Source: a virus
Direction: 5' to 3' (one strand)
Length of the DNA stretch: 22,734 bases
Virus record (IMG/VR): IMGVR_UViG_3300008113_001778
Span: 1 to 22,734 of that record
In this document: positions 1-16,434 of the stretch, in pieces
Position numbering within the stretch: position 1 is the stretch's first letter
Layout of the letters: each line of letters begins with the position of its first letter
Position numbers and translations under genes: made by a program
The notes under the pieces: generated by a model
The model's input: the letters and a program-made list of their open reading frames with translations, nothing else
Told to the model about the DNA's origin: nothing
The model's database searches: none

Positions 1-471
1 TCCGCCAGCATTGAAAAAGTATCTTGCAGCGTCTGCTGATGCAAACGTTACTGTGTTGGTAAAAGTAATGGTCCAAGTAGCGCCCGAAGTAGTTGCGGTC
101 TTTGAGTTGGTACCAGTCCATCCTGTAAATTGAGTGCCCACTGCGGCTGCATTTCCGCGATTGTTATAGCAGTTTGTGATGTCTGTGTTTACCGCAGCCA
201 ACACACTGATTAACGATCCTGTGGTGGGTGCGCTTCGTGATGTAATTGTGGTGCCTTGATGACTGGCCATGCTGGAAATGGTATTGACCAAGCTGGCCCA
301 CTGAGTGGCACTGACTGTACCAGCTGCACTTACTGTGGCCAATGCACTTTGCCCATATCCAGCTGATGTTGTTCCAGTGCTCCATGTGGCGTTGACGTTG
401 GCACCAGCGGTGGTACTAACAAAACCGTTATAATCAGTTGCTTGAATTAAGCCGCCAGCTACGTAAGTCAT
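1..471 (-). CDS. Structural/fibre-associated protein of unknown function, C-terminus cut by window edge
   Basis: The frame is open from ATG at 471 to the window edge: 157 residues with no stop, so the gene continues to the left. The start has a good Shine-Dalgarno sequence (TAGGA about 9 nt upstream) and lies 12 nt after the fibre stop codon, so the two genes are probably co-transcribed. The protein begins MTYVAGGLIQATDYNGF and is rich in Thr, Ala, Gly, Ser and Asn, with a central SLVNTISSMASHQGTT segment and the segment FTGWTGTNSKT followed by TWTITFTNTVTFASADAARYFF. I recall this arrangement from hypothetical proteins next to tail-fibre genes in marine myoviruses, but I know of no assigned function. 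The beta-rich, low-charge composition fits a virion surface protein. I saw no transmembrane segment or signal peptide. Confidence 0.85.
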   Translation of the reverse strand, partial: MTYVAGGLIQATDYNGFVSTTAGANVNATWSTGTTSAGYGQSALATVSAAGTVSATQWASLVNTISSMASHQGTTITSRSAPTTGSLISVLAAVNTDITNCYNNRGNAAAVGTQFTGWTGTNSKTATTSGATWTITFTNTVTFASADAARYFFNAGG

Positions 472-483
472 ACTTTTTTCCTA

Positions 484-2217
484 TTAATTCTTGATGGTCA
501 CAATAGCTTCAATTGTACCTTGATCTGGGGTAGTTTTGTCAACCAGACTACGTCCAATTACGTTAAATGCATTGATTTCGTTTCGCTGAGCTGCTCGAGC
601 AATGCCGTTGCCAGCTGAAACCAATCTGTCGCCTTTTTTCACGTAACCAACTACTTTGACTGGAACTCTACCAGTCATAGCCACTGGTGGGTGTGTGTCA
701 TCACTGCCTGCTCCACCGTTCATTAGGTAAGCAGCTCTTGTACTTATCACACCAAACACATTTTCACTTAGTTCTTGTTGACTGCGAGTAATTTCTTTTT
801 CGCCTCCCAATTCAACCACAGTACCAGCATCCATGACATCGTCAGCTGCAAATCGTTCTGCAACGTCAGCGTACAGTGCTGTGGTGGCCTGTGCAAAAAT
901 TCTGTTAAAGTAACCAGCTGAACTACCAATGTTGCCAACTGCATTGCCAGCACCGTTGATGATGGCAGTGGCTGCTGCGCCACTGTTGACTGTGATTGAT
1001 CCACTGGTGATCATGCCACTGGTAGTAAACACTGCAACGTTAGCAGTGCCGCCCACAGAAATGTTGGCGTTGCCACCAGGTGCACCAATGTTGGCTTCTG
1101 TGGTGCCGTTAACAATCTTGGTCACGCTAACTGCCGCGCTCAATCCTGTGAGCTGACTGCCATTACCAAGGAAGAAAGTACCAGCAATGTTGCCGCTGCT
1201 GTCAATGTTACCTGTAGCACTGATTGCACCACCTGTGCGTAGGTTACCACCTTGTACGTTGGCAGTAGCACTAACGGTTGTGGCAGCCACCAATGTTGTG
1301 TTGACGTTACCGCCTGTGATATTGCCAGTTACGCTGGCAAGGCCACCAGATAAAATGTTACCACCGGTGATGTTACCAGTTACTCCCAGAGTAGTACCCA
1401 CTGTGGCAGCGTTGGCCACAGCAAATGTACCGTTGCTGCCCAGGGCACGAGCTACGTTAAACAGAGTGCCAGCCACGTTGGCTTGTAGTGTAAGATTGCC
1501 ACCACTAATAGATGCAGCAACTATACCATCATTTGTGCTCTGACTAATTTGTACAGCATTACTGGTTCCAATAAAGATACCATTGGCATTGTTAACTTGC
1601 AAACGACCTGTGGTTGCTGTGTTAGCAGTGGCTCGCATGAAGTCTGTTGAATCCAGTGTGTCTAGGGTTTGAGCATTTGTGGCTGTACCACCAAACACTG
1701 CACTGGCATTACTGGTCAGTGTGATACCAGGATATATTGTGGTAAAGCCTGAAATTGATGGACTAGGAGTAAACTGTGCGTCTTTGCTGACATAGGCCAC
1801 AACTTGGTTGGCATCTTCCAAGGCCACAACAAAGTGATTGGTAACACCGTCACTCAGCGTTCCAGGAACGGCACCAGATGAACCTTGAGCTTGTGTATAT
1901 GCAGGGCCCACTACCAAGAATGCTGTGCCAGTCCAGACTTTTAACTGCTGGTTTGTAGTGTCGTACCACAGATCACCTGCAACGTTACTGGTTGGTGCAG
2001 TGGCTTGACTGGTAGCCGCGCTGATTGTTTTCCATACTGCGCCGTTGTAAACTTTCAACAGTAAGTTGCTACTGTCCCACCAAAGTTGACCTTCTAATGG
2101 GCTGGCCAGCAGTGCATTTGTTGGGTTACCAGAACTGGCTGGGCTTGAAAAGTTTTCTAGATGACGAACAAAGTTTTCATCTAGTAACTGTCCGTAACCA
2201 GCGTAGTTTTTACCCAC
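484..2217 (-). CDS. Tail-fibre protein with Peptidase_G2/S74-like C-terminal domain, 5' end apparently missing
   Basis: A 577-codon frame. Near the N-terminus are two related repeats, LEGQLWWDSSNLLLKVYNG (residues 41-59) and VAGDLWYDTTNQQLKVWTG (79-97), typical of T4-like marine phage fibres. Residues 182-215 hold a TLDTLDSTDFMRA segment followed by a Val/Asn/Gly-rich stretch. Residues about 277-350 are a GNITGGN-type repeat, a likely trimeric beta shaft. Residues about 438-577 (LYADVAERF, then GVISTRAAYLMN, then MTGRVPVKVVG) resemble the Peptidase_G2/intramolecular-chaperone ends that trimerise fibres and often cleave themselves; I cannot identify the catalytic residues. The first possible start is GTG at 2217 with no Shine-Dalgarno sequence. 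The same frame stays open up to 2265 and reads TADGTTNTSSSVTLVGKNYA, which looks like the conserved fibre N-terminus, so the true start codon appears lost (see the junction at 2255-2268). Confidence 0.88.
   Translation of the reverse strand: MGKNYAGYGQLLDENFVRHLENFSSPASSGNPTNALLASPLEGQLWWDSSNLLLKVYNGAVWKTISAATSQATAPTSNVAGDLWYDTTNQQLKVWTGTAFLVVGPAYTQAQGSSGAVPGTLSDGVTNHFVVALEDANQVVAYVSKDAQFTPSPSISGFTTIYPGITLTSNASAVFGGTATNAQTLDTLDSTDFMRATANTATTGRLQVNNANGIFIGTSNAVQISQSTNDGIVAASISGGNLTLQANVAGTLFNVARALGSNGTFAVANAATVGTTLGVTGNITGGNILSGGLASVTGNITGGNVNTTLVAATTVSATANVQGGNLRTGGAISATGNIDSSGNIAGTFFLGNGSQLTGLSAAVSVTKIVNGTTEANIGAPGGNANISVGGTANVAVFTTSGMITSGSITVNSGAAATAIINGAGNAVGNIGSSAGYFNRIFAQATTALYADVAERFAADDVMDAGTVVELGGEKEITRSQQELSENVFGVISTRAAYLMNGGAGSDDTHPPVAMTGRVPVKVVGYVKKGDRLVSAGNGIARAAQRNEINAFNVIGRSLVDKTTPDQGTIEAIVTIKN
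1171..1389 (-). repeat. GNITGGN-type shaft repeat within the tail-fibre gene
   Basis: This encodes fibre residues about 277-349. The unit (V/A)(T/S)(G/A)N(I/V)xGGN recurs as VTGNITGGN twice, ATANVQGGN once and ATGNIDSSGN once, spaced by 8-15 residues. At DNA level the first two units are imperfect direct repeats of about 24 bp. Repeats like this usually form an extended trimeric beta fibre and are hot spots for unequal recombination and fibre length change. Confidence 0.7.
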
Positions 2218-2720
2218 AAGGGTAACACTGCTTGAAGTATTTGTAGTACCGTCTGCCGTCCTAGTTCATCAAATACAAATTCACCGTTGAAATTGGTGCT
2301 GTTGTCAAATGCCTGTTGTTCAGGCGGTTCGCCATAGTCCAACAAGCAAGTTACCAAGATATCTGAGTACACATTACCTGAAGTGTGCAACACAGTCATT
2401 TTGTTGTTTTCAGGGTCTGTGTCTGCTGCTGAGTTGTCGTTGACTACTTTGGCATAGGTTTGATTGTACAAGTCAGCATTTTGTCCTGTGGTATTTGGGG
2501 GCAAATATGTGATAACGCCAGTGGGGTCTACCGAACTACCGCCATTGCCAAACGCCATTTCATAAATGTAGCCTAGATTTCTATCGCTTAGAGTTTGGGC
2601 CATAGCAATGCTTATATTTTCATAATGAATAGCATTGTGATCATTGTAAAAAATTTCGCCGCTTTTGGGATCATGTATCTTGACATGTCCTGTAATTTTG
2701 GCCAGTCCTGGAGTAATCAT
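2181..2720 (-). CDS. Small virion structural protein, C-terminus apparently replaced by out-of-frame sequence
   Basis: A 179-codon frame from ATG at 2720 with a strong Shine-Dalgarno sequence (GGAGG, 7 nt spacer) inside the end of the upstream 49-aa gene; the stop and start overlap as ATGA. The N-terminus reads GLAKITGHVKIHDPKSGEIF (residues 5-24), then MAFGNGGSSVDPTGVITYL (55-73), then VTCLLDYGEPPEQQAFDNS (123-141) and FVFDELG (148-154). I recall this pattern from conserved hypothetical structural proteins beside baseplate wedge and fibre genes in marine myoviruses; it has no named function that I know. The position suggests a baseplate-to-fibre connector. Residues 155-179 are encoded by DNA whose better reading is the other frame (the fibre N-terminus). 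The genuine protein therefore probably ends differently, and this C-terminus is likely an artefact of a deletion or assembly error. Confidence 0.8.
   Translation of the reverse strand: MITPGLAKITGHVKIHDPKSGEIFYNDHNAIHYENISIAMAQTLSDRNLGYIYEMAFGNGGSSVDPTGVITYLPPNTTGQNADLYNQTYAKVVNDNSAADTDPENNKMTVLHTSGNVYSDILVTCLLDYGEPPEQQAFDNSTNFNGEFVFDELGRQTVLQILQAVLPLWVKTTLVTDSY
2255..2268 (-). other. Apparent deletion junction between the 179-codon gene and the fibre gene
   Basis: Upstream of this point the 179-codon frame looks genuine (FVFDELG ends at 2259). Downstream, the fibre frame looks genuine (TADGTTNTSSSV begins near 2259) but meets TGA at 2266-2268 just before it, with no ATG and no Shine-Dalgarno sequence. 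The two frames differ by -1. The simplest reading is that the 3' end of one gene, the spacer and the start of the next are absent from this sequence. Confidence 0.6.
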
Positions 2721-2866
2721 GCGCGGCCCTCCACATAGGTTTTTTGTGTTTTAGGGTCAAAAATGCGCATGTGAGCTTGCACTGAGATTGACCCCTGCTC
2801 ATTGGGGCGACGTGGGGTCGCGGGTTTTGCAGTGTGTTGAGCGGGTTTCTGTTCGTTCTTTGACAT
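2717..2866 (-). CDS. 49-residue protein, shares the IxDPK motif with the next gene
   Basis: This is a complete short frame from ATG at 2866 to TGA at 2717-2719, filling nearly all of an otherwise empty 161-nt gap. The protein starts MSKNEQKPAQHTAKPATPRR, basic and probably disordered. It ends with GSISVQAHMRIFDPKTQKTY followed by VEGRA. The second half aligns by eye with residues 8-24 of the next protein (ITGHVKIHDPKSGEIF), which supports real coding and a common origin. The stop overlaps the next ATG (ATGA), and that gene's GGAGG Shine-Dalgarno sequence lies inside this frame, so translation is probably coupled. Its own Shine-Dalgarno candidate (AAGG) sits rather far upstream, about 13 nt. 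I recall similar short proteins in marine phage baseplate regions. Function unknown; a small virion or assembly component is likely. Confidence 0.75.
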   Translation of the reverse strand: MSKNEQKPAQHTAKPATPRRPNEQGSISVQAHMRIFDPKTQKTYVEGRA

Positions 2867-2881
2867 GGTCAGTTATTTACC

Positions 2882-5800
2882 TTATAAATCGCCCTGGAGG
2901 AACCTTGCAGATGCAGTTTGACTTTCTTGCAGGCTCAACTCTCGTTCAGCTTGTGTAGTGACCCCGTACCACCAAGTGCCCCGGCGTGTCAGTATGGTTA
3001 CTTCAACGCCTTCCATGGGCGGAATTAGCGGATCTATAGGATCGTTATTGGTTACAAATTCAATAGTCAGCGGTGAATCGTCCCCGCCAGCATCGGTGCA
3101 AATCCAACGATATTGACTGGTGGCTGTGGTATCACTGTAGTTGTACTGACGAATACCGCCCACATAAACTTCAATGCTTTCAACATAGATAGAGCTAGAG
3201 TCACCAAAATCATCAATGCTGATATTGGGAGCATAAAACACCGTTGTGGTGCCATCTCCCATGCTGGTGTCACTGATTACATAGTCTTGCAATGATTCTG
3301 GTCCAAGGTTGCCACGACCAATATCGTACACTGCTGATCCCACAGCATGGCTAGCAATACCAGTGCCAGCTGTGCCGCGCAACAATCCAGTCAAAGAGTT
3401 ATTGGCCAAATTACGTTCGCGGTAGGTGATGCGCTCACCGTTGATGGTAACAACGCCAAGAATTCCAGCTGTGAGATCAGGGTTGTCTAGCGCCGCAACA
3501 TTTTGCACATAGATTATGTCACTAGAAGTACTGAGAGCCTGTGCCAACTCAGTGGTAGTAGCAGGTGTAATTCTGTAAGTAGCTTGCACTCCGCGCATGT
3601 CTTGGAAAATACGGAATCCTATGGCTTCAGGCACAACTGAATCAGTGCACTCGGTTGCAACCACAATGTCGTTGGTTTCGATTGGTCCAGCTGCTAGAAT
3701 CAAATATTGACCGTCAACTGTGTAATCTTGGCCTTCAAACAGTCTGTAACCGTTCAATGTGACCCACAACCGACCAGCTGTGATACCTGTGCGCAGCAAA
3801 TCAAATTCGTTTGTGGGAATTGCTGTGCCCACAGTGTAGTCATAAGTTCCTGGGCCGCCACTAACTGTGCCTGTGTCATAATCGGTACTGTCGTAAGGTT
3901 CGTTAATTGTGATACCTGTAGTTACGGGTCCAACCCAAGTCAAAGTCAACAAGTTTTGCTGAGCAGTGTCGTTCCAACTGGTCACTGTAAATCTGTCATC
4001 AACATTTACAGGCACAATTAGTTCTACTGAGTTTCCAACCACAACATAGTCAGTCACTGTGGTAACAGCAATCAGTACTTGTGTACCACTAGCTGGCGGC
4101 GCATTGAAAACAACTTGTCGTCCAGGAACTTCACTACCATCCCAGTTAGTAACACTGTAGTCTCCAACTACAGCACCAAAACTCTGTACTTGTAGTTCAT
4201 TGTTGACCCAAACATTAACATCAGTTTGTGCATCAATAATCTGTTGACTGTAGCCTGTGCGTTGAGGTAGACCAAATGATAAACTGCTGTCATCACCAAT
4301 CCACTCAATTGATGCTGCTGGTCGCAAACGCACTCCGTTCTTGGTCACTACAAGATTAGGTGCATTGGTACCAGATAGCGTGCCTGTCAGGTTCAATGTT
4401 GGATTGGCCACTAGGTCAACATCAGCCACAAAGTTTTGTATGACTGGTGCACTCCATGAATATTGATCTGGTGTGGTAGATGTTGCATTGGCTATGATTT
4501 CAATGGTTTGATCGTTCCAATTGACATAGTAGTCAAGATTGCTAGTCATGTCAACACCAGCAGTGACGTTACTCACTATGATCTGTACCGGGCGCTCAAC
4601 CACACCTTCCCAGCTCAATATACTGGTTATTGCTGGTACGTAGGTATATCTCACGGTGCCAATTTGGAATCCGTGGCCATTGCCTTGCCAGTCAGACCCT
4701 GGACGAGTAAACACTCTCATGTCCAAAGTGTCAAATTCACTGCCGTTGATCAATTCTTCAGGGGCATGACCTTCGTAAGGTCCAATAAATTCGCCACCGT
4801 TGACATTGATGCTGGTGAAAGTTTCGCCCAGTGTTAGATCTGTAAACTCGCTTTGGTATTGTGCGTCAACTGGTATGGTGCCCAAGAAATAGTCGCCCCA
4901 TACCTGCACGCCCGGATAATCTACACCATCAATCAAGAGTGGTAGCTCAAGTCCAGGTAAGTTAACTCCAGCTACATAGTAGCCCATGGTACGGTCTACA
5001 CCCGACAATTCATTAGCTGGTACCAATACCCAATCTTCTAAGTTGAATGTTGGGCCAACGTTAGCTGAACTACCGTCAGAATTTGCGGCTCTCCATACTC
5101 GGTCATCATAGCGTACCAAAGTTCCATTTTCGTAAGTTCCAGTAGACTCCCAGGTCAAAACTTGTGTTTGATATTGGAATCTATCATACTTGATAACTGT
5201 GCGGAAATCTCTCACTAAGTCATTGGTGAGTCTTGCATAGGCTCTTGCGCCAGTGCCGTTGCCACCTTCAAACACCACAGTGGGCGTTGATTGATATCCA
5301 GATCCGTAGTCAGTGATATTCACCGCCACAACTTGGCCCACACTGTTGATCACTGCCACGCCAGTGGCTGGGGTAGCAGCATCGCCTACAATAGTAACTT
5401 GTGGTGGTGCCTGATACCCAGTGCCTTGATTGACCATGACAATTTCACTTAGACTCAATAGATAATTGTTGTACCATTGTGTGTAAGGCCACTCTTGCCA
5501 AACTGTACTGCTGGCTGGCAAGTCACTCTTGTCATTACTGATTTCTGCCGTACCATGATCGTATGGCAACAATACTGGGCTAGTAAATTGTGGAATCTCT
5601 AGACTGGTATTGTAATAAGCCGGTACATCAAAGTCAGTCATGTCGCCAAAGAAGGTGTTCAAACCATTATACTTGAGATTGAATTCTCGTACTTGCACGT
5701 GATATGGCTTGACTTCTTGAATGTAATCAGACACAAATTCTTGATTGTCACGCACATAGTTCTGGAATGGCAACAGTTCACGGATTCTATGATCAACGTC

Positions 5801-7234
5801 AATCAAGGATGTTTTTACCAGCCATTCTGGAGCAGAAAATTCGCTCAACACAAAGTTAAACATCAGCACCAAAGCTCGGTTGCGTTCTATTGCAAGATCA
5901 TCAACAAACAGTTCTTCGTTAATGGCTTGAATGATCTTGCGAGTTTCAATCACAGGCTCTTGGTCAAAGTATTGCGCATCAAAAACTTCTAAGTCAAAAC
6001 CAAATCTGCCCAAGGCATAGTTCCACAATTCTTCAGCAAATTTAATGGTGCCATCTTGCAAGCCAACACGACTCCAGCCAGTGTCTTCTAGCAAATAAAT
6101 TTCCCACTTGTTCTGTGCGTTGGCAGTGACTTTTACGCTAGACCCCACTGGCACAGTCAGTGTACTCAACGCACTGTACGTGAGTACTTCAGCCACGGGC
6201 TTGATGCTGAAGTTATATCCAGGACGATACCAATTGATATAACTCCAGTAGTCTGGAGTGTTGTAATTTTGCACACGGGTCAGTACCAGTTGTCGGGCAC
6301 CCAACAAAGCTGGATCAGTTTCCACAGTGTAAATTGACCACAAACCTCGATTGTTGGAATCGCTAACAACCAAATATCTATAGCCCAAAGGCACAGCATA
6401 GATATTTTGGAAACTTAAAATTTCCAAGTTTGCCACACGCAGTTCAAATCTGTCCACAAACATGCTTTGTCGTGGCCTAAACTGCACGCCGTATCTTTCG
6501 GCCACGTTCAAATTGGGGTCAGGTACTTTGTTACCAAATGTGTCAACACCACAGAAGCTGTCTTGTAGCTTGCGATACAAGTTTGCACTCAAGAACCCAT
6601 CAGCTCTGTCTTGTGCAATCAATTCATATTCTACGTGAACATTGTCATTGGTGAGTTCACGATCAAATTCGATATTCAAGATTGTGTCTTCGGCTTCAAT
6701 CAAAGTTTCGCAGTTATACAAAGCAGTAGTACTGGCGTTGATTGGTGCAATGTACGCAATGCCGCTGGCTCTTGGATTGGCAATGTACTGCGCCACAGTG
6801 TTGACGCCTAGTGTTTTGCCTTTTTGTGTGGCAACTTCAGTCAACCCACGTACCCAGAAGAAGTATTGAGTGCTAAAAGTGCCATTGGTGCTCAACACTG
6901 AGTTAATGCTGTAACTCACTGTGTCGTGCGGAATACCAGGGCCAGTGTAATTGGCTGGAGGAACTGGACTCACAATCCACTGATATACATCAACACTGGA
7001 TCCAGGGAAAATTTGTCCCCAGCGACGGCTGGCGTACACAATGTCGTCTTGGTTGGGGTCAATAAATCTCACTGTGCTGATATCCCACCACACTTCACCT
7101 ACATGTTCTGCGCCCCAAGTTGTGCCGCGAATGTTGATGTACCCAGCTAGGTGTACGAGTTTGATTCTCAAATACAAACACACTGCCAAAGTTAGCTGAC
7201 GATGAATCTTCAAAATCGTTGCCTGGTGCCCCAA
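2882..7234 (-). CDS. Giant modular baseplate/tail protein, C-terminal part (1450 codons), no credible start
   Basis: The family-like sequence begins around GTTWGAEHVGEVWWD (residues 37-51), continuing with STVRFIDPNQDDIVYASRRWG. The first 30 or so codons are an out-of-frame reading of the preceding gene. The only start is TTG at 7234, without a Shine-Dalgarno sequence, and the first internal Met is about residue 258. Modules in order: two GxGYxxxPxV repeats (598-670); a CBM5/12-like WxxxxxYxxGxLVxYxxxxW module (694-738); several beta-hairpin modules of the form VxVNxxxxxxxxDYTV...VxF...PxxGxxVxI (about 940-1060, 1148-1195, 1325-1418); and a segment FRIFQDMRGVQATYRI through VVTINGERITYRERN (1207-1275) that I recall from marine phage structural proteins. 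It ends with TAA 15 nt before the 49-aa gene. It is probably the C-terminal third of one very large wedge/peripheral baseplate protein broken at about 7140. Its position after gp6 would match the gp7-like slot, but I see no clear gp7 homology. Confidence 0.82.
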   Translation of the reverse strand: MGHQATILKIHRQLTLAVCLYLRIKLVHLAGYINIRGTTWGAEHVGEVWWDISTVRFIDPNQDDIVYASRRWGQIFPGSSVDVYQWIVSPVPPANYTGPGIPHDTVSYSINSVLSTNGTFSTQYFFWVRGLTEVATQKGKTLGVNTVAQYIANPRASGIAYIAPINASTTALYNCETLIEAEDTILNIEFDRELTNDNVHVEYELIAQDRADGFLSANLYRKLQDSFCGVDTFGNKVPDPNLNVAERYGVQFRPRQSMFVDRFELRVANLEILSFQNIYAVPLGYRYLVVSDSNNRGLWSIYTVETDPALLGARQLVLTRVQNYNTPDYWSYINWYRPGYNFSIKPVAEVLTYSALSTLTVPVGSSVKVTANAQNKWEIYLLEDTGWSRVGLQDGTIKFAEELWNYALGRFGFDLEVFDAQYFDQEPVIETRKIIQAINEELFVDDLAIERNRALVLMFNFVLSEFSAPEWLVKTSLIDVDHRIRELLPFQNYVRDNQEFVSDYIQEVKPYHVQVREFNLKYNGLNTFFGDMTDFDVPAYYNTSLEIPQFTSPVLLPYDHGTAEISNDKSDLPASSTVWQEWPYTQWYNNYLLSLSEIVMVNQGTGYQAPPQVTIVGDAATPATGVAVINSVGQVVAVNITDYGSGYQSTPTVVFEGGNGTGARAYARLTNDLVRDFRTVIKYDRFQYQTQVLTWESTGTYENGTLVRYDDRVWRAANSDGSSANVGPTFNLEDWVLVPANELSGVDRTMGYYVAGVNLPGLELPLLIDGVDYPGVQVWGDYFLGTIPVDAQYQSEFTDLTLGETFTSINVNGGEFIGPYEGHAPEELINGSEFDTLDMRVFTRPGSDWQGNGHGFQIGTVRYTYVPAITSILSWEGVVERPVQIIVSNVTAGVDMTSNLDYYVNWNDQTIEIIANATSTTPDQYSWSAPVIQNFVADVDLVANPTLNLTGTLSGTNAPNLVVTKNGVRLRPAASIEWIGDDSSLSFGLPQRTGYSQQIIDAQTDVNVWVNNELQVQSFGAVVGDYSVTNWDGSEVPGRQVVFNAPPASGTQVLIAVTTVTDYVVVGNSVELIVPVNVDDRFTVTSWNDTAQQNLLTLTWVGPVTTGITINEPYDSTDYDTGTVSGGPGTYDYTVGTAIPTNEFDLLRTGITAGRLWVTLNGYRLFEGQDYTVDGQYLILAAGPIETNDIVVATECTDSVVPEAIGFRIFQDMRGVQATYRITPATTTELAQALSTSSDIIYVQNVAALDNPDLTAGILGVVTINGERITYRERNLANNSLTGLLRGTAGTGIASHAVGSAVYDIGRGNLGPESLQDYVISDTSMGDGTTTVFYAPNISIDDFGDSSSIYVESIEVYVGGIRQYNYSDTTATSQYRWICTDAGGDDSPLTIEFVTNNDPIDPLIPPMEGVEVTILTRRGTWWYGVTTQAERELSLQESQTASARFLQGDL
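5021..5155 (-). other. CBM5/12-like carbohydrate-binding module (in the 1450-codon frame)
   Basis: Residues 694-738 read TWESTGTYENGTLVRYDD, then VWRAANSDG, ending EDWVLV. The pattern W-x(5)-Y-x-x-G-x-(L/I)-V-x-Y-x(3)-(V/Y)-W-x-A, closing with W, is that of chitin-binding-like modules of the CBM5/12 class. In phages these often sit in tail proteins that touch surface glycans. Binding is inferred from the fold pattern only. Confidence 0.55.
5225..5443 (-). other. Two tandem GxGYxxxPxV repeats (in the 1450-codon frame)
   Basis: Residues 598-670 contain VNQGTGYQAPPQVTIVG and TDYGSGYQSTPTVVFEG, linked by an Ala/Val-rich stretch (ATGVAVINSVGQVVAVNI) and followed by GTGARAYARL. I recall this beta-repeat from many marine phage tail and baseplate proteins. 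A related GSGYAVSNTVTIAG unit is present in the neighbouring frame (residues 1398-1411 of the 1948-codon frame). Confidence 0.6.
7095..7165 (-). other. Apparent frame break between the 1948- and 1450-codon frames
   Basis: The upstream frame ends its last FG-GAP blade with GSVFVFENQTRTPSW and then reads an unconvincing Arg/His-rich tail to TGA. The downstream frame becomes convincing at INIRGTTWGAEHVGEVWWD (from about 7137). The shift is +1. No classical slippery heptamer, Shine-Dalgarno sequence or ATG is present. The octamer CATCAACA (complement of 7132-7139) lies exactly at the join and could be the residue of recombination between short direct repeats. Confidence 0.6.
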
Positions 7235-10200
7235 TCATTAGGTTGCCCGACACATAGTTAACTGCTATACCAAACTGATCGTAGCTGTCAAGACTGACGT
7301 TGGAAATTTGATCACCAAACACAAACTTACCAGGATTGGTCACAGTCATACTAGAACTGGGCAAGTAATCAAATGTGTATGCGGCTCCACTTTGAACAAT
7401 CACTGAGAAGAATATAGTAGCGCCAGCATCAAAATCAGTTATGCCGTCGTCAAATATAGTTTCCAAATACAGAGTACCTCGTGGAGTACCCACTACCAAA
7501 TTGGTAGCGCCAGTGTCAATGCTAAGGCTTGATCCAAAGGCTGCGTATTCAATAGGATAAGGACTTTCAATTGTTTGAGTGTAAACAAAAGTGTCAAAAT
7601 TTAAATTGTAAAATGTTGATCCCACGCTGCCAGGTGCAACTTGTAACTTGTCGCCTACTGGTGCTGCATTACTGTTTTTAACGCTGAGAGTTAGATACCC
7701 GTCAGTTGATACTGTGGCAGTGACGTTAGGCACTGCGGCATTGATGGCTGCTGCTAGACCAGTGACATTTTGATTGGGAGCTATTGGCACTGCAACATCA
7801 ATATTGTTAACGCGGATTGTGTCACCAGCAGTCAACGTTGGGTTGGCTGTGAGTGCAGTGATTACTCCGTAGGTTCTAGACTGGTTGACTTGTCGTTCAA
7901 CCACGCCACCTTTAAAAATTTGCACACTGCTTTGCGGAGCACCTGAGTACAGACTGCAATTATAGTTGCAGAGCTCTACTGCTGAACCATAATTGCTAAA
8001 TTCAGCCACAGTGTTTTGTGACACAGTTTGTACCAGTTTGAATTGATTGGTTTCAATTTGCACTTCATCGCCCACTGCCAAGTCAGCATTGAGAGTCACT
8101 GTGTTACCGCTCACTGTGAACGTATTAGATGACGACAGTGTGGCAGCAGTTTCGTTTATGAGGAATACATTATTGACCAACACACTGACTGGTGCAGTCA
8201 CTGTGCCTAGCACAGTAAAGCTGATTGAACTAGGGTCGGTGCCGTAGATAAATCTTTGTACGTTGCGGTCATACACATACACCGCACCAGCCTCAGCGTT
8301 GCCATCAACAGTGGCATCAGGGGCGCCTACAATAAGAGTGCGACCGTCGGTGCTGCAACTGATAGTTTCGCCAAATCGCACGTTAGCTCCACCCAATGTG
8401 ATTGTGTCTACATAGGTAAAGTATGATTGAGCTCGAGCCGCAATAATGCTGCCTTGCGCAGGACTGTTCAAAAAAGTGATATCTTTGGTTGTAGCATTGA
8501 ATGTATAGTCAATGTTGGGTCGTTGCAATACTTCGTCAACCAAGATGGTAAAGCTATAGATATCGCTGACTGTAAACAAAAATTCGTTCAGTGAGAACGT
8601 GGTAGCCAACGCAGGCGGAGTGTAGGCAATGGTAAAACCAGTGATACCGCCAGTTCCATCAACACTGGTAATAGTCAATACAATGGGATTTGTGCCGCCA
8701 AAACTGGCGCCAGCAATGGTCACCGTATTGCTTACTGCGTACCCAGATCCTAAGTTAAAGATGCTGACACTGCCAGCATCGCCACCAGGTTGTCCCACTT
8801 CACCACGTGTGCGAACAATGGTAAATGCAGCATTGGTTCCTGATCCACTGGTTGAAGTCTGTGGAACATTATAGTATGTTTGCCCGTCAAGTTGTTTACG
8901 ACCCAGTCTGCGAATTGTTACCACACTGCCGGCTGGTGGTACAGTGATAAAATTAACAGTGGTAAAAGATGCATTTACTGTGTAATCCGTACCTAACAAA
9001 TACAACGTATCATCTACTGTAATATTGATTTGAGTGTTGGCATTGATTTGAATGGTGTTGGAAATTGCATACGCTGTGGTTACACCATCGGCTAGCACAC
9101 GGACAAATTGATCTTGCCAGTCAACTCTACCATAGGCGTGCACACGATTTTTGCCAGGTTCGCCAACGTACATCCAACGTTCGTCTTGACTCATCACAAC
9201 ACTATAGCCAAACTCGCCTTGATCAATGCTGACTGATCCTGGCGTGGTCAACAGTTGCCACAAGAAATATGGATTTGCAAGTGTGAGTATGGCATCACCG
9301 CTAGGCAGCGGGCTAATTGGTATGTATTGATCAGCAGTGCTCTTGACATACACATATACTGCACCAGTTGTAGTGCCACTGCCAAATCCGTAGTAAGGAC
9401 TACCAACCAGGGCAGCAAAACGATTCAATGCTTGTGCTACACTGTAACCATATTGTTCATTGGCGTCAAGATTTTCTGGGGCCAGCGTGATTACATCGCT
9501 AAACACCTGTTGTTTTTCAAGCACTTGCCATTTGCCTGTGCCATCATCATCTACCCAAACTCTTGCGCCAGGCAAAATTTCATTGGCGTAAGGCAATGTG
9601 CCCACATCAGATGCCTGTGCTACTCGCATGGTTTGTAGTGTAAATGCCAGGCCAGTGCCGTTGATTACTGTGCGATTTCCAATTGGTACAAACGCAATGG
9701 TTATCTTGTTTAGAGATGGTACTGTCAATACCTGGTACACACCGTCAACTTCGGTATCAAAGTATTTGATAATGATAGTATCACCAACGCTTAGTCCGTG
9801 TTGTTCGGTGAAAATTGCAATACTGCTACCATCAAGATTGTCACAGATATGACTGATTACTCCTGGTACATGATTGGTTCGGTAAATGTTCCAGTCATAG
9901 TCGTTGACTTTGGCAACCCAAATACTGGTTCCAGTGTAGATGTCATTGATATTGGCTTCAAGACTGGCAGGATCAGACAATTGAAATACTGTGATATCAA
10001 CGTCGTTGAGATTGACATATCCAGCTGTGGGCAAAGCAGTGTCTGTGGGCACATCAAAAGTTTCGGGCAATATGTCAGTGCTGGTCAGTTTGTAACTTTG
10101 TCTCCATACGTCACTGAGCAAAATTGTTTGATCAGCTTGACTGGCTTGCTGTGGATAAACCACTTGTACCAAACTGGGGCTGGCACTCAACAATGCACGA

Positions 10201-12941
10201 TTCAGTCGTAACTCAAAGAAACTGCGGTTGGCGTTGGCTCCGTACACTGCACGTTGCACAGCCCAGTTTTCATAAATGTCATAGTTACCAGCTTCTTTGC
10301 CAAGGTTGGCATTGGAGAACAATTCTGCAGAAAGAATAGTACCTTTACTGCCCAAGAATTGTCGATAAACATTGACCTGACTAACATCGTCAAGATTCAG
10401 TGCTGCCATGTATTGTCGTGGACGGAATCCAATCAATCCATAACTCAACAAGTCATTGTCGCCTTCAAGATTGGCGCTGTTGATGCTGTAGCTGTTGGCC
10501 AACTGATTGGCTTTGTTGGCCAAGTTTGGCAATAGCCCAAGCTCGATCTGTGTGTAATCACTCTGCACCCAGTCATTGTAGTTGAACAACGTGCTGGGTT
10601 GCACAATGGTCAATGCTGACCAATAAGTGTTTTTGTACTTGACAATTTCACCCTTGCTGTAGGTTCGCAAGCCAGTCCACTCTTCAACATTGTCTTGGTT
10701 GAGTATGAAACCTTGTGCGTCAACACTGCCATTCCACTCAGTGGTCGTTGCAGCCACAATATTCAAACGACTTTGGCGTGCACCAGTTATGGGCTCATAG
10801 ATTAAGTCGCCGAACACTGAAACATTGTCCAACACAATCATGTGTTCGTAGGCGGTGTATTTGATGTCAATAAAACTTAGAGTTTGGTCATTCAGTGGTT
10901 GCACTGTGAATGTGTTGTCAACCCGCACAATGTTGAGATTGCGTGTGGGCAATTCTCTACGATTTTGATCCAACAATAAATCTTCACTGGTTTGTGCTTT
11001 GATACTGTCTACCACAGCATCGTCTCTTGTGATTGACAAACTAAATGCCAAGGGATTTAGATTGATCAATGCATCTTCACTCCAACCTTGTTGGCTCCAG
11101 TACAAGAATTCTGTTACCATTTGTTGCCAAGACAACACATAACCATTGGCTTGATTGTCAAATGTTAAACCTTGTGTTTCTAAAAATTTGCCATAGCTCA
11201 ACAAAAAGTCAGCCACACTAGACAGACTACTGAAAATAAATCCGTATGGCACAGGCACTACCGTTTTAGTGTAAACAGTTGGTACTTGAACTGACACTCC
11301 ACCTGCTGATATAGTTTGCAATTTGCCTGCTGGCACACTTTGCAAAACGTTAAAATAAGGCTGGGTGGTGCTGTAGCCACCCACAGAATATCCGCCAGCC
11401 ACTTGTTGAATCAACACTGAACTATAACTGGTCCTATCAAACGGTTGATTTTTATACAACAACAAATTGTAACTTTCATCAGGAATCAAGAAAGTTGTAT
11501 TTGTTGAGTTAGGGCTAGATTTTTCTGTGTAAATCTTGATATATTGTTTGTCTGAGAAGCTGGCCATGCGATAGCACAGTCGTACATCAAGATTGGCCAA
11601 ATCATCAGTTAAATCTTGTGTTGAATCAAGTCCAGTTTGACGGTTGTAGTCCACAATCCAGTCAATGTAACTGGCCTTGGATACTCCGTTACCATAAACT
11701 TCAATGCCATTGGCATCAAGACGATAACGATCATTGTAAAGATACTGATCAAACTCAGCATTGTAGCGATACAAATCCCGGTCTGCAAACAAAGCAAAGA
11801 ATTTGGCCGGACGTGTTAGAGCCAACAATCTCATTACAGCAAACGGATAAGAACTAGAGTTCCACCATGAAGCTTCTACCGGGCCGCCGTCGCCTACTGC
11901 CCAGCTCTTGCGAAACTGTTGAGGATCATAGGTGCTGACTACACTTTGTAATGGTGCTAACAATTCACCTTCACTACCAGTTGGAATGACTTGTGTAAGG
12001 CTTGGTCTTGCAAACTGCGGCAGCACATACGGAGCAATTGGGTCACGAACCAAACCAGCTTCTAGATCATCCCACAACACCAAGTTGTCAGCAGTGTAAG
12101 GGGCAGTGCCGTAGGTTTCATCCCACCAACTGGGCTTGACCGAGAATCCCAGCATTTCCCATGGTGTAAATTCTGGCTGTTGAGTATCATAGAAATAACG
12201 ATAGATACCACGCCAAGCACCCAGCAAGTTTTCACCATTGAGTCTATTTTGTGCTTCGCTATAGTTGTAGGTAAATTCGTTTGTGGCAGAATACTGTTGC
12301 TCTTTGTAATCCAGTTTGTTCCAAGCCACATAACTCAAGAGTTCCTGTGCTAAGATATTGTTTACTTCAGATGCTGAAAATCCAGTGTCACGGAACTGTC
12401 CTGGTATTACGTCATACACTGACAGTGGTACTGGGTTGTCATCTAGTTTTAAATTGTTGTAAATTCTAGTTTCAAATTCTAGCAACACGTCATCGCGAAT
12501 ATCGCCAAAAGTTTTTGTAACTGATCCATCATGACCTATGATAACTGTCTGGTCGCCTTTGGAAGTTTTTTGTATCACTATCTCAGGTTGCCAAGCAGGA
12601 TACAACCCCAATTTGGTAGGTGTGTTGGGCACGAAGTTGCCATATGTTTGAACATATTCACGAATGGTAATAACATCGCCCACTGACAGTGAAACAAGGA
12701 TAGTCACACGCGGGCCGTCTGTGGCCACAACGTATTCTAAATCACGGGTAAGAATTTCATTATTGAGATACACATTCATACCAAGGTAGTTGGCAGATGT
12801 ATAGTTGTAGACTTGTATGGTATCAAACACATTGGTGGTAATAAAACTCACAGTGTAGTTGGTTTCATTATACACTGCGCCACTAGGCACCATGTCACTC
12901 CAATAAAATGGCTGTGTTTCTACTTTGCCTAGATTGGTCAC
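7095..12941 (-). CDS. Giant modular baseplate/tail protein, middle part (1948 codons), FG-GAP propeller near its end
   Basis: The frame opens at GTG 12941 without a Shine-Dalgarno sequence, 47 nt inside the previous gene. Family-like sequence begins near NLGKVETQPFYWSDMVPSG. Residues 1-700 hold a beta-hairpin module (about 28-96), an Asp/Tyr/Trp-rich core (WRGIYRYFYDTQQPEFTPWE at 243-262; SYPFAVMRLLALTRPAKFF at 364-382), and no catalytic motif I can name. Residues 754-792 are a CBM5/12-like module. Residues about 1164-1925 contain six FG-GAP-like blades (FG...(V/M)xGxP...VYVY) interrupted by beta-sandwich inserts and by a Flagellin_IN-like segment. The last 15 or so codons (after TPSW) run out of frame to TGA at 7095-7097. 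I saw no signal peptide or transmembrane helix. It is probably the middle of one giant virion protein shared with its two neighbours; a separate protein expressed by coupled reinitiation is the alternative. Confidence 0.82.
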   Translation of the reverse strand: MTNLGKVETQPFYWSDMVPSGAVYNETNYTVSFITTNVFDTIQVYNYTSANYLGMNVYLNNEILTRDLEYVVATDGPRVTILVSLSVGDVITIREYVQTYGNFVPNTPTKLGLYPAWQPEIVIQKTSKGDQTVIIGHDGSVTKTFGDIRDDVLLEFETRIYNNLKLDDNPVPLSVYDVIPGQFRDTGFSASEVNNILAQELLSYVAWNKLDYKEQQYSATNEFTYNYSEAQNRLNGENLLGAWRGIYRYFYDTQQPEFTPWEMLGFSVKPSWWDETYGTAPYTADNLVLWDDLEAGLVRDPIAPYVLPQFARPSLTQVIPTGSEGELLAPLQSVVSTYDPQQFRKSWAVGDGGPVEASWWNSSSYPFAVMRLLALTRPAKFFALFADRDLYRYNAEFDQYLYNDRYRLDANGIEVYGNGVSKASYIDWIVDYNRQTGLDSTQDLTDDLANLDVRLCYRMASFSDKQYIKIYTEKSSPNSTNTTFLIPDESYNLLLYKNQPFDRTSYSSVLIQQVAGGYSVGGYSTTQPYFNVLQSVPAGKLQTISAGGVSVQVPTVYTKTVVPVPYGFIFSSLSSVADFLLSYGKFLETQGLTFDNQANGYVLSWQQMVTEFLYWSQQGWSEDALINLNPLAFSLSITRDDAVVDSIKAQTSEDLLLDQNRRELPTRNLNIVRVDNTFTVQPLNDQTLSFIDIKYTAYEHMIVLDNVSVFGDLIYEPITGARQSRLNIVAATTTEWNGSVDAQGFILNQDNVEEWTGLRTYSKGEIVKYKNTYWSALTIVQPSTLFNYNDWVQSDYTQIELGLLPNLANKANQLANSYSINSANLEGDNDLLSYGLIGFRPRQYMAALNLDDVSQVNVYRQFLGSKGTILSAELFSNANLGKEAGNYDIYENWAVQRAVYGANANRSFFELRLNRALLSASPSLVQVVYPQQASQADQTILLSDVWRQSYKLTSTDILPETFDVPTDTALPTAGYVNLNDVDITVFQLSDPASLEANINDIYTGTSIWVAKVNDYDWNIYRTNHVPGVISHICDNLDGSSIAIFTEQHGLSVGDTIIIKYFDTEVDGVYQVLTVPSLNKITIAFVPIGNRTVINGTGLAFTLQTMRVAQASDVGTLPYANEILPGARVWVDDDGTGKWQVLEKQQVFSDVITLAPENLDANEQYGYSVAQALNRFAALVGSPYYGFGSGTTTGAVYVYVKSTADQYIPISPLPSGDAILTLANPYFLWQLLTTPGSVSIDQGEFGYSVVMSQDERWMYVGEPGKNRVHAYGRVDWQDQFVRVLADGVTTAYAISNTIQINANTQINITVDDTLYLLGTDYTVNASFTTVNFITVPPAGSVVTIRRLGRKQLDGQTYYNVPQTSTSGSGTNAAFTIVRTRGEVGQPGGDAGSVSIFNLGSGYAVSNTVTIAGASFGGTNPIVLTITSVDGTGGITGFTIAYTPPALATTFSLNEFLFTVSDIYSFTILVDEVLQRPNIDYTFNATTKDITFLNSPAQGSIIAARAQSYFTYVDTITLGGANVRFGETISCSTDGRTLIVGAPDATVDGNAEAGAVYVYDRNVQRFIYGTDPSSISFTVLGTVTAPVSVLVNNVFLINETAATLSSSNTFTVSGNTVTLNADLAVGDEVQIETNQFKLVQTVSQNTVAEFSNYGSAVELCNYNCSLYSGAPQSSVQIFKGGVVERQVNQSRTYGVITALTANPTLTAGDTIRVNNIDVAVPIAPNQNVTGLAAAINAAVPNVTATVSTDGYLTLSVKNSNAAPVGDKLQVAPGSVGSTFYNLNFDTFVYTQTIESPYPIEYAAFGSSLSIDTGATNLVVGTPRGTLYLETIFDDGITDFDAGATIFFSVIVQSGAAYTFDYLPSSSMTVTNPGKFVFGDQISNVSLDSYDQFGIAVNYVSGNLMIGAPGNDFEDSSSANFGSVFVFENQTRTPSWVHQHSRHNLGRRTCR
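7167..9452 (-). other. FG-GAP-type beta-propeller region with large inserts
   Basis: In the 1948-codon frame, blades start near residues 1164 (YGYSVAQ... LVGSPYYG... GAVYVYVK), 1244 (FGYSVVM... MYVGEPGKN... VHAYG), 1523 (FGETISC... LIVGAPDA... GAVYVYDR), 1651 (YGSAVEL... LYSGAPQS... VQIFK), 1802 (FGSSLSI... LVVGTPRG... TLYLE) and 1890 (FGIAVNY... LMIGAPGND... GSVFVFEN). Six blades are recognisable; a seventh could lie in sequence lost at the break just downstream. FG-GAP propellers are ligand- or cell-surface-binding folds, as in integrin alpha chains. Confidence 0.7.
7626..7853 (-). other. Flagellin_IN-like segment inside the propeller
   Basis: Residues about 1697-1772 of the 1948-codon frame: DTIRVNNIDVAVPIA, then VTGLAAAINAAVPNVTATVS, then DGYLTLSVKN. 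The pattern (GDxIxVNxxxV... LxxxINAA...VTAxVxxDGxLxL) matches the hook/flagellin IN motif also found in phage tail proteins. It sits between blades five and four counted from the C-terminus of the propeller list, as an insertion. Function is inferred to be structural. Confidence 0.5.
10566..10682 (-). other. CBM5/12-like carbohydrate-binding module (in the 1948-codon frame)
   Basis: Residues 754-792: EWTGLRTYSKGEIVKYKN, then TYWSALTIVQPS, ending NDWVQ. The same W...Y-x-x-G-x-(I/L)-V-x-Y...W-x-A...W pattern occurs in the 1450-codon frame, which suggests the two frames share a modular ancestry. Confidence 0.55.
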
Positions 12942-12945
12942 TGCG
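12895..12945 (-). other. Apparent frame break between the 1179- and 1948-codon frames
   Basis: The upstream frame is convincing through GYFLRSD (ends at 12937) and then reads QSRQSRNTAILLE to TGA. The downstream frame is convincing from NLGKVETQPFYWSDM (from 12935), but its only nearby start is GTG at 12941 with no Shine-Dalgarno sequence, and a TGA lies in frame at 12966-12968. The shift is +1, the same direction as at about 7140. Confidence 0.6.
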
Positions 12946-15900
12946 CAAAAAGTATCCGGCCAAGGTCAGTGGTGCTGACTGTTGCAAAATAGTCAGGCCA
13001 TATGGTCCAATATTGCCAAGGTCTCTAGTGTTGTTGGCACCAGAAATTGCTCCCGAAATGGTGGGCAAGTTTTCACAGATACTTTGATACTGTTGACGTA
13101 TAGTACCCAGTGTGAACTGATCGCTGTTGCCATTGAGCGGATTGTTTTCAAGATTGATTGGCACTTGATAAAATGCCACTTGACTGGTTTGTTCACTCAA
13201 CACCAAGACTTCAATGATATCTCCTGGTATGTAAGTTTCTTTTAATGTTATAGCAGTGCTGTTGGCAGTTCTGGTATAGGTGTATTTGCTGGGTTCTTGG
13301 AATGCAGAACCAACATAAATTTTTATTACAGGAACTATGTCAGGATCATTTACTCGTATATCAAGATTTAGTGTGCTGGTTGAGTATGTAAACTTAAACT
13401 GTTGATACACTTTGGTGGGTGTGGCAGCGTTTTGCCAACCAATTAACCTCTGGTACTCTGTGCGGGTTGCATATTCTCGAGCCGAACCTGAACTGATTGG
13501 CAAAGTAACTGATACATTGTCAAGGGTGTAAATGAATGTATCTTTATACAAATTGTTGTCAAATACAATGTCTCCAACGTTTTGTAGATTAAGATACTGC
13601 AAAGGAAATTTCAACACTACGTCAAGAATACCACTGTCGCTGACTGCATAGCTGAACAACTTACTGCCCACAAAGTCTGAACTGGGATAGGTGGCTCTGT
13701 CTCCAAAGCTAATGCCGTTGGCATCGTATACATTGAATAACGGTGCTTGTTGAACACTGGTTTTTTGCTGTGCTTCAAACCACTCATTACCGTCATACCA
13801 AAAGGTCAGTCCCTTGAGATCAGTGCCATCCAAGCATACTGTGCATTGATCAGCCAAAATTGGTGCGTCAGTTGCTGGCACCAAGTGTATGATCGGTTGT
13901 CCATTGTAGGGCAATGGTATGGGCGGTGTAGAGTCTGGTGTTACAAATTGTACCACCCAAATTTTGTTTCTAACATTGGCATCTTCATCAGCAGCAAAAA
14001 TCACTCTTGAGCCGTCAATTAGTGTATATCCATCTACTGTGTAACCAGTGCTGCCTTCTACGTTGCTAAATGCATCAGTTTCTTCAAAGTCAATTATGTC
14101 CACTGGGGCTTTGCCGCTGGTGCCCATGTTGAACAATCGAATACCTGGACGAAACTGTATAATAGGTCGTTTGGCTCGATAAACATTGTCCAACACTGCC
14201 ACAGTGTTGTTGTAATCAGCAGTGGCATTGATCACATCAATGTGAAACCAACGATTGCTGCGTGACCAAGCATTGAGATCTTTGCTGGCTCGGTCAATGG
14301 TAAGATAATCAAGCTCATCTGGTTCTGTAGCTATGGTGCTGTCATTGGCATCAACTACATAAGTTTCAGGGGTAACAAAATTTGTACCTGGCAGTAGTTC
14401 AATGCTGGAACCCACACCGGCTACATAATATTCACGATTGGTAATGGTCACGCCATTCATGGTACCACTGCCAGTCAATAAGTTAACTGGCAATCCGCCT
14501 AGAGTGGCGCTGATGCTGAATTGATATGCACTGGCTATGGTACTGACATAGTATGTATAGCCTGCTGACAAGCCGCCCAATGTAGTGCCAGTAAACACAA
14601 TCTGCTGACCTTCGTACAGGCCAGCAGTGCTGATGGTTGTGATATAGTTGGTGGCGCTGTTGGTGTTTGAACACACAATAGATCCTGTGCCAGACCCATA
14701 GCTGGCAGGATATACATCGCCTGTGAATCTAACTTTTAAGCCATTGGTAAACTGCACGCCATTGGGCGAAGTGTATTGCTGTTTTCCCAAAATGTCATCA
14801 ATGTACAGTGTGCTACTATCAGTTTGATCCAATAATTTAATTGTGCCAAAAATTTCAGGATCAGTGCCGTCTTGGTAGTACAACGTGTCCATGGTAGCGG
14901 TCAACAATGGAATCTGCGTTAATTCCCCAGCAGCAGTTTTGTACCAATTGGTACTGCTGTACTGTGCCCCGTATCTAATTGTGAATTTTTCTAGGCTAGC
15001 AATGTTTGAAGTTTTTGCCAACTGCATGTATGTGTAACCATTTGCAGTCACATAATTGATGGTATAGATTTGATAACGGTCATTAACAGGTATTACAGTG
15101 ACTTGGTCAAATGTAGTAGTGTCGTAAGTGCCAGGCAAAGCTTCGTTAGATGCACCTGGTGCCACTGGGTCAAACAATGTGGTTTGTAACCATCCACCAC
15201 CTTCGGCATCTTCAATAGGATTGGTAAACACCACGGTACGACCATTGAGATATGTAATGCCATCAATACCATTGTAAGTGTTGATAAACTGATCAACTGG
15301 TTGATTGTTGATTTGATCAAACTTCATTGTGGTCAACAAATCAACTGTGCCAATGTCTGTTAGATTGTAGTAAAAATCTTGTGCAGTTTTATAAGGTACG
15401 TCAAATATAATGGTTCCAAGATCTTCACCGTTGTTGGCCACACCCAAAACATCTCTGCTGGAAATATTTGGAGTTGATGGAATACGGCCAGAAATGCCTG
15501 GATTGGTTTGAATCCAAAATCCCGGGCCAGTGCCCGGAGTGCCGTCAACAATCTGCAATGTACCATGCATGTTGGGTTGATTTTGTGCAGAGTAATAAAG
15601 AGTGTCGGGTGCATCTTGTGGCACAACAAATGTGACCAAGCCCAAGATAGCACCATTGCGATTTACGCCTGAATTGTAACTGTCGCCCACACCAGTGGTG
15701 GGTGCTGTTTTGATCCAGAAAGGATAGGCTCCAGTCAATGCCAAGTTGAACACATAGGTGTTGCCACGAGCCAATGTCAACGTGGGATTGTTTTGGAAAT
15801 CAATGTTGTAGGCTGTGGTACCAGTGTTTTTTACTCGATAGTTAACAGTTTCCTTGGCATTTTGTGCCACTTGGAAAGTGTAACTGCCGCCTCGTACCAA

Positions 15901-16434
15901 TTCAATTTGTGGATTTTCTCCAGGTACTCCAGAAAAAGTGTAAACACCATTTTCTCTTGTGACAACAAAATTGTCACTGAACGGCACGCCGGTGGCACCC
16001 ACATCCACTGTGTCTGGGCCTGTGGGCAACCAATAGTACTGAGCAAAGTTTACAAATGCGTCATAATCAATAAACGGATCCCAGGTATAGTAGTCGCTTT
16101 GATACAAGCGGTCTGGGCGGCCGCCGTTACCGCCTTGGAACGATATAGCATCGGCCATGCCTGGGTAGGTTATTGCATTTTTAATAACATTGGTGTCGGA
16201 CTTTAGACTGATTACGCCAGGTTCTAGCTGGTAGTTGGCTCTAGTAGCATTGGGTTCAACTACGTATTTGTCGTTGGGGTTGACACCAGGGCCCACAGTG
16301 CGGCCAATGTAACCTTGTGTTTTCTTAAACTTGGGCTCTTGAATCAGCTGATCAAGAGTGGCAGCCAAGAATTGCTTGTTGGCGTCAGTCTGAAAAATCT
16401 GTGGTAGAAAGTCAACGCTTCGTGTTCTGGCCAT
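12895..16434 (-). CDS. Giant modular baseplate/tail protein, N-terminal part (1179 codons)
   Basis: ATG at 16434 shares its A with the gp6 stop (TAATG) and has a GGAG Shine-Dalgarno sequence 7 nt upstream, so this start is firm and coupled to gp6. The N-terminus TRSVDFLPQIFQTDANKQFL, with AATLDQLIQEPKFKKTQGYI after it, is one I recall from large marine T4-like structural proteins. Residues 175-189 and 217-231 repeat an RG(G/N)(S/T)Y(T/V)F strand; residues about 200-297 form a degenerate cupredoxin-like domain; residues 589-661 carry an ITTISTAGLYEGQQIVFTG... GGL...YYV...FSIS repeat unit; residues about 1014-1080 are a beta-hairpin module. The end, LQQSAPLTLAGYFLRSD (1150-1166), looks conserved, after which the frame reads an out-of-frame tail to TGA. 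The protein therefore probably continued into the 1948-codon frame. The post-gp6 position fits the outer wedge (gp7 slot in T4 order), but that assignment is by context only. Confidence 0.83.
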   Translation of the reverse strand: MARTRSVDFLPQIFQTDANKQFLAATLDQLIQEPKFKKTQGYIGRTVGPGVNPNDKYVVEPNATRANYQLEPGVISLKSDTNVIKNAITYPGMADAISFQGGNGGRPDRLYQSDYYTWDPFIDYDAFVNFAQYYWLPTGPDTVDVGATGVPFSDNFVVTRENGVYTFSGVPGENPQIELVRGGSYTFQVAQNAKETVNYRVKNTGTTAYNIDFQNNPTLTLARGNTYVFNLALTGAYPFWIKTAPTTGVGDSYNSGVNRNGAILGLVTFVVPQDAPDTLYYSAQNQPNMHGTLQIVDGTPGTGPGFWIQTNPGISGRIPSTPNISSRDVLGVANNGEDLGTIIFDVPYKTAQDFYYNLTDIGTVDLLTTMKFDQINNQPVDQFINTYNGIDGITYLNGRTVVFTNPIEDAEGGGWLQTTLFDPVAPGASNEALPGTYDTTTFDQVTVIPVNDRYQIYTINYVTANGYTYMQLAKTSNIASLEKFTIRYGAQYSSTNWYKTAAGELTQIPLLTATMDTLYYQDGTDPEIFGTIKLLDQTDSSTLYIDDILGKQQYTSPNGVQFTNGLKVRFTGDVYPASYGSGTGSIVCSNTNSATNYITTISTAGLYEGQQIVFTGTTLGGLSAGYTYYVSTIASAYQFSISATLGGLPVNLLTGSGTMNGVTITNREYYVAGVGSSIELLPGTNFVTPETYVVDANDSTIATEPDELDYLTIDRASKDLNAWSRSNRWFHIDVINATADYNNTVAVLDNVYRAKRPIIQFRPGIRLFNMGTSGKAPVDIIDFEETDAFSNVEGSTGYTVDGYTLIDGSRVIFAADEDANVRNKIWVVQFVTPDSTPPIPLPYNGQPIIHLVPATDAPILADQCTVCLDGTDLKGLTFWYDGNEWFEAQQKTSVQQAPLFNVYDANGISFGDRATYPSSDFVGSKLFSYAVSDSGILDVVLKFPLQYLNLQNVGDIVFDNNLYKDTFIYTLDNVSVTLPISSGSAREYATRTEYQRLIGWQNAATPTKVYQQFKFTYSTSTLNLDIRVNDPDIVPVIKIYVGSAFQEPSKYTYTRTANSTAITLKETYIPGDIIEVLVLSEQTSQVAFYQVPINLENNPLNGNSDQFTLGTIRQQYQSICENLPTISGAISGANNTRDLGNIGPYGLTILQQSAPLTLAGYFLRSDQSRQSRNTAILLE
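15544..15837 (-). other. Cupredoxin-like domain lacking most copper ligands
   Basis: Residues about 200-297 of the 1179-codon frame: PTLTLARGNTYVFNL, GAYPFWIKTAPTTGVGDSYN, GAILGLVTFVVPQDAPDTLY, YSAQNQPNMHGTLQIV. This matches the phage/cyanobacterial cupredoxin pattern HPFxIKT...TFxVPxxAPxxLYYxCxxHxxMxG. The expected His is Tyr237, Cys is Ala283, the second His is Gln286, and only Met289 is kept. The fold is probably retained without copper. Confidence 0.65.

Follow-up and report, generated by a model that had tools for sequence, protein, structure and literature searches.

The junction at positions 2257-2260 of the window, the 22,734-nucleotide stretch of viral DNA analysed here (IMG/VR record IMGVR_UViG_3300008113_001778), separates a small virion gene from a fibre gene. 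This junction, termed b3, is very probably a data fault, in which an assembly gap was closed without trace, and no biological feature. The nearest relative at this site, locus L002, is 88% identical to the window on one side of the junction and 95% on the other, and has 222 bases where the window has 4, leaving a net 218 bases absent. Missing are the last 47 codons and the stop codon of the small gene, the spacer, and about 16 codons at the 5' end of the fibre gene, its start codon among them. The joint is judged here against relatives of 88-95% identity or less. An earlier sequence-only reading of the window had described both genes as damaged at one point, and as a description of the record this holds: the small gene is without its 3' end and the fibre gene without its 5' end.

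The open reading frame of the small gene in the window has 179 codons and spans 2720 to 2181 on the minus strand in the list of open reading frames. Codons 1-154, ending with the residues DELG (2259-2720, minus strand), represent the genuine 5' part of the gene, as indicated by relatives and by the profile of PHROG 11259, a family of unknown function. The remaining C-terminal tail (2181-2258, minus strand) is false, being an out-of-frame reading of fibre-gene DNA. The sequence and the list of reading frames are both in line with the earlier view that the protein is convincing up to FVFDELG and that its last 25 codons are out-of-frame fibre DNA. The PHROG 11259 profile covers residues 8-157 of the window protein (E 1.4e-52) and residues 7-194 of the whole L002 protein (E 4.5e-70). 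The match thus extends over most of the small protein, and in the window it ends at the start of the false tail.

A search of IMG/VR with the 179-codon protein gave 310 relatives, of which the best 80 (L002-L081) were kept and translated. All 80 agree with the window through E(F/Y)VFDELG (residue 154) and diverge after it, continuing with LK.W.G....LRL(I/V)THVIFHPVQKSLNRQIQIDYT(L/V)RIQTL(S/T)N... and sharing, with small variants, the C-terminus LRLITHVIFHPVQKSLNRQIQIDYTLRIQTLSNINAV. The conserved C-terminal segment LRLITHVIFHPVQKSLNRQIQIDYTLRIQ or a close variant of it is likewise present in 80 of 80, and is absent from the window protein because its DNA is lost. The small gene is 200-201 codons long throughout the 80 relatives kept, with the stop at 201 codons; in L064, where the match starts one residue later, the length is 200. 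When the window protein was aligned with 31 of the 80 relatives, colinearity extended to the end in all 31 but not in the window protein. The sequence-only reading had asked whether relatives are longer at the C-terminus, and all 80 extend past DELG to the shared end. Conversely, the overlapping gene arrangement with the same 25-residue tail, which that reading named as the observation that would speak against damage, occurs in 0 of the 80 relatives kept. A structure prediction for the whole 201-residue protein, based on 32 sequences, reached a mean pLDDT of 38 and was set aside.

On the other side of the junction, the fibre gene (484-2256, minus strand, assigned from relatives) lacks about its first 16 codons. 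The fibre-like frame TADGTTNTSSSVTLVGKNYAGYG runs into the 179-codon frame, and its first listed start is a GTG at 2217. Among the 80 relatives kept, 79 loci reach this point and in each of them the next gene starts with ATGGC; L063 ends before the fibre start and lies outside this count. The start was placed by script in 77 loci and was read from the sequence in L055 and L061, where the script had chosen an earlier ATG. The spacer between the stop codon of the small gene and ATGGC measures 21-50 bases in all 79 loci. Nearly all of them have a fibre N-terminus of the pattern MAY.I.L..G..FAT(I/V).DG, and the window joins the fibre protein at ADGTT, immediately after the (I/V) codon. The extra N-terminus beginning with Met that was to be looked for in fibre relatives is therefore present in 79 of 79. 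Near the C-terminus, residues 411-500 of the 577-codon frame (484-2217) weakly match Peptidase_G2, a self-cleaving intramolecular chaperone, scoring 26 bits where the cut-off is 25.

The same gene arrangement is found in named phages. Among 60 matching phage records, the three examined encode small proteins of 198, 202 and 199 residues, each followed by a gene with a separate Met start. Exact searches for the immediate surroundings of b3 in viral_contigs, which may omit very near records, gave no hit for a 22-mer across the joint and none for a 27-mer of the fibre-side flank. A 29-mer of the other flank was found in two contigs (one of them L004, the other L306), both from other strains and both whole at the end of the small gene; no same-strain contig was recovered with it.

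Break b3 is one of seven places in the window where conserved coding DNA is absent, with 126 to about 399 bases missing at each, all within 22.7 kb. Most of them fall in a giant virion structural gene (2882-16434, minus strand, assigned from relatives), whose first third matches PHROG 10938 (virion structural protein). In each of the six full-length relatives, which were fetched at length from among 20 searched records, this gene forms a single frame of 4784-5045 residues, with some regions varying in length between strains. In the window it is split in three by two frame breaks, b1 (12932-12940, about 140 bases absent) and b2 (7139-7151, about 191 bases absent), which are presumably the first two breaks of the sequence-only reading. 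Three further losses in the giant gene keep the frame, namely c (9277-9283, about 156 bases), d (6442-6443, exactly 126 bases or 42 codons) and e (4475-4480, about 399 bases fewer than in L138). The seventh site, x (21273-21274), lies in a 456-codon gene and lacks exactly 126 bases (42 codons), also in frame. All four in-frame losses, c, d, e and x, had gone unnoticed in the earlier reading. The sizes were taken from relatives L138/L218 or, at d and x, exactly from a record of the same strain.

All six full-length relatives carry the blocks absent from the window at b1, c, b2, d and e, and a block like that missing at x is found in all six as well. The size of the loss at e is the least certain of the seven: the region around it (about 4478) varies by hundreds of bases between relatives, the six being about 400-760 bases longer than the window there, and part of this loss may be natural, given that the relatives' own length varies. 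An exact 28-mer beside site e gave no match, so that no same-strain contig was found for it. At b1, b2 and b3 the tetranucleotide CTAG coincides with the joint or lies no more than a few bases away. This was taken as chance, since the window holds 53 CTAG, none lies at c, d or e, and the one at b2 is missing in the same-strain record. Upstream of the giant gene are genes matching baseplate wedge subunits, gp25 and a hub/tail-lysozyme protein, and the gene content is nothing unusual for a jumbo myophage.

The same-strain record (IMGVR_UViG_3300008267_001453, 18,980 bases, fetched as L137, L217 and L301) differs from the window by 9 mismatches over about 17.3 kb, aligned in six ungapped pieces. 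Its locus L301 stops at about window position 5424, and the record therefore covers five of the seven break sites, excluding b3 and e. At d and x it is whole, both 126-base blocks being present. At b1, c and b2 both records are broken, with ends that differ by 5, 38 and 13 bases, respectively. The same-strain record lacks 5 bases beyond the window's loss at b1 and 13 bases beyond it at b2, and at c it is a net 38 bases longer than the window and out of frame. Such differing ends argue against deletions shared by descent, which would have identical ends. Four of the nine mismatches fall within 19 bases (window 9480-9498), about 200 bases from break c, and local strain variation there may have broken the assembly near c. 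No paper was found under the metagenome number 3300008267.

At the two window joints that can be measured exactly, the abutting sequences share 0 bases (d) and 1 base (x). Comparable joints occur in other records. In a control pair, L143/L223 (3300008117_000729) lacks 170 and 46 bases that are present in L142/L224 (3300008108_000041), with 0 shared bases at the 170-base site, whose flanks are 100% identical, and 1 at the 46-base site. In addition, L213 (3300017777_006628) lacks 41 bases of the giant gene relative to a record more than 99% identical and whole there, and L254 (3300044675_006717) lacks 37 giant-gene bases relative to a whole record, also more than 99% identical, with a joint sharing 3 bases. 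By protein comparison, about 100 bases are missing from the giant gene in L295 (3300008267_000313). The near absence of shared sequence at the joints argues against both recombination between repeats and false overlaps, and fits contig ends that were simply abutted.

A survey of other contigs, which detects frame-breaking losses only and only over the stretch that each contig covers, found the giant frame unbroken in 121 of 127. Of the six with a broken frame, one is the same-strain record, and another (3300009163_000265) has a frame slip of one base close to the end of its contig. Broken frames were seen in 3 of 8 records numbered 3300008xxx against 3 of 119 others (Fisher p 0.003, a post hoc comparison), a hint only of an excess in that group. 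Scaffolds are normally expected to contain gaps. No N marking a gap was found in the window, and the fetched loci, 2.16 Mb when overlapping stretches are counted more than once, are likewise free of N. Either N-bearing records were not included or the Ns were taken out; in the latter case every gap would become a joint of the kind seen here.

We thus propose that the window is a fragment from a jumbo myophage, assembled with the gaps between contigs closed up so that neither bases nor Ns stand in their place. The loss at b3, about 218 bases, would then begin at codon 155 of a virion gene of about 201 codons and extend about 16 codons into the fibre gene, and the phage itself would most likely carry both genes whole. 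This verdict at b3 draws on L002, the 80 relatives and the resemblance of b3 to its sister sites, all of which except e are covered by the same-strain record. We infer that b3 has its cause in common with these sites, and that this cause lay in joining scaffold gaps or removing Ns and not in another fault of assembly. Some observations weigh against the proposal. A real deletion common to the strain would break both of its records at one place, as is seen at three sites, though with ends that differ, and plain gaps do not predict the 126-base size at both exactly measured sites. The length variation among relatives at e and the 3 bases shared at the L254 joint also count on this side. The earlier interpretation is thereby partly supported: the damage it described is in the record, whereas its suggestion that the fibre, if the loss is real, would lack its baseplate-attachment end is unsupported as biology, since an assembly artefact very probably accounts for the loss.

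That the phage, or a defective sub-population of it, truly lost the end of the small gene together with the fibre start by deletion is improbable. The record is self-consistent on both flanks of b3, and three sister sites are broken in the second same-strain record too, both of which a deletion would accommodate. However, it would have to account for seven losses within 22.7 kb, in conserved virion genes with frames that are open elsewhere, for two losses (d and x) that are missing from the same-strain record, and for the 5-, 13- and 38-base differences between the ends at b1, b2 and c; moreover, the 0 and 1 bases shared at the joints indicate that repeats were not the driver. A process that recurrently excises blocks of 100-400 bases from virion genes, at the same sites within one phage population, with slightly varying ends and with whole and defective genomes mixed, would be a real source of such losses and is very unlikely. 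Also scarcely credible is a natural overlap of the two genes, in which the 25-residue C-terminus would be genuine and the fibre protein would start from the GTG at 2217: both frames are open, but the arrangement is seen in none of the 80 relatives and in none of the three named phages examined. Programmed frameshifting or ribosome bypassing that links the small gene to the fibre gene can practically be dismissed. An out-of-frame continuation does exist, but the window is short of DNA and carries no extra DNA, and in the relatives a stop codon ends the small gene and the fibre gene has its own start.

Within the artefact verdict, a fault of the assembler other than gap closure, that is, falsely overlapped reads or read pairs, or contig ends trimmed in relation to the word length, is possible but doubtful. 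It would draw on the 126 bases lost at both exactly measured sites. This number equals 127 minus 1 and could, as a guess, point to an assembler word length of 127. On the other hand, false overlaps require several shared bases, more than the 0 and 1 found in the window, and the remaining losses are of other sizes, about 140, 156, 191, 218 and 399 bases in the window and 170, 46, 41 and 37 in other records. Closure of gaps between contigs without bases or Ns remains our preferred reading.

Regardless of the exact step, the case serves as a caution only. Records of this kind give split genes, false out-of-frame tails and in-frame shortened proteins of normal appearance, and four of the seven losses in the window, being in frame, would slip past checks that use open frames alone. 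Scaffold-gap artefacts in metagenomic contigs are a known data fault. The window resembles them in having joints without shared sequence, ends that differ within a strain and whole copies elsewhere. It differs from them in that its gaps carry no Ns and in the two exact 126-base losses, which such artefacts leave unexplained.

A distant DNA search of the 'phages' collection with window positions 1-8000 gave no match. Two named phages have a structural module close to that of the window: Agrobacterium phage Atu_ph07 (MF403008.1), presented in its report as a jumbo phage (PMC6102473), and Sinorhizobium phage Phosso (PV764938.1), likewise a jumbo phage. In both, as in the window, a giant structural gene (4449 residues in Atu_ph07, calculated from coordinates) is followed by a small gene, of 198-199 residues in these phages, and then by a gene that in them has its own Met and a start resembling the fibre start. 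Their small proteins are 52-57% identical to that of the window. Atu_ph07 differs in carrying two small genes between the giant gene and the small gene. The window, in turn, differs from both phages in that the ends of its genes and further blocks are missing.
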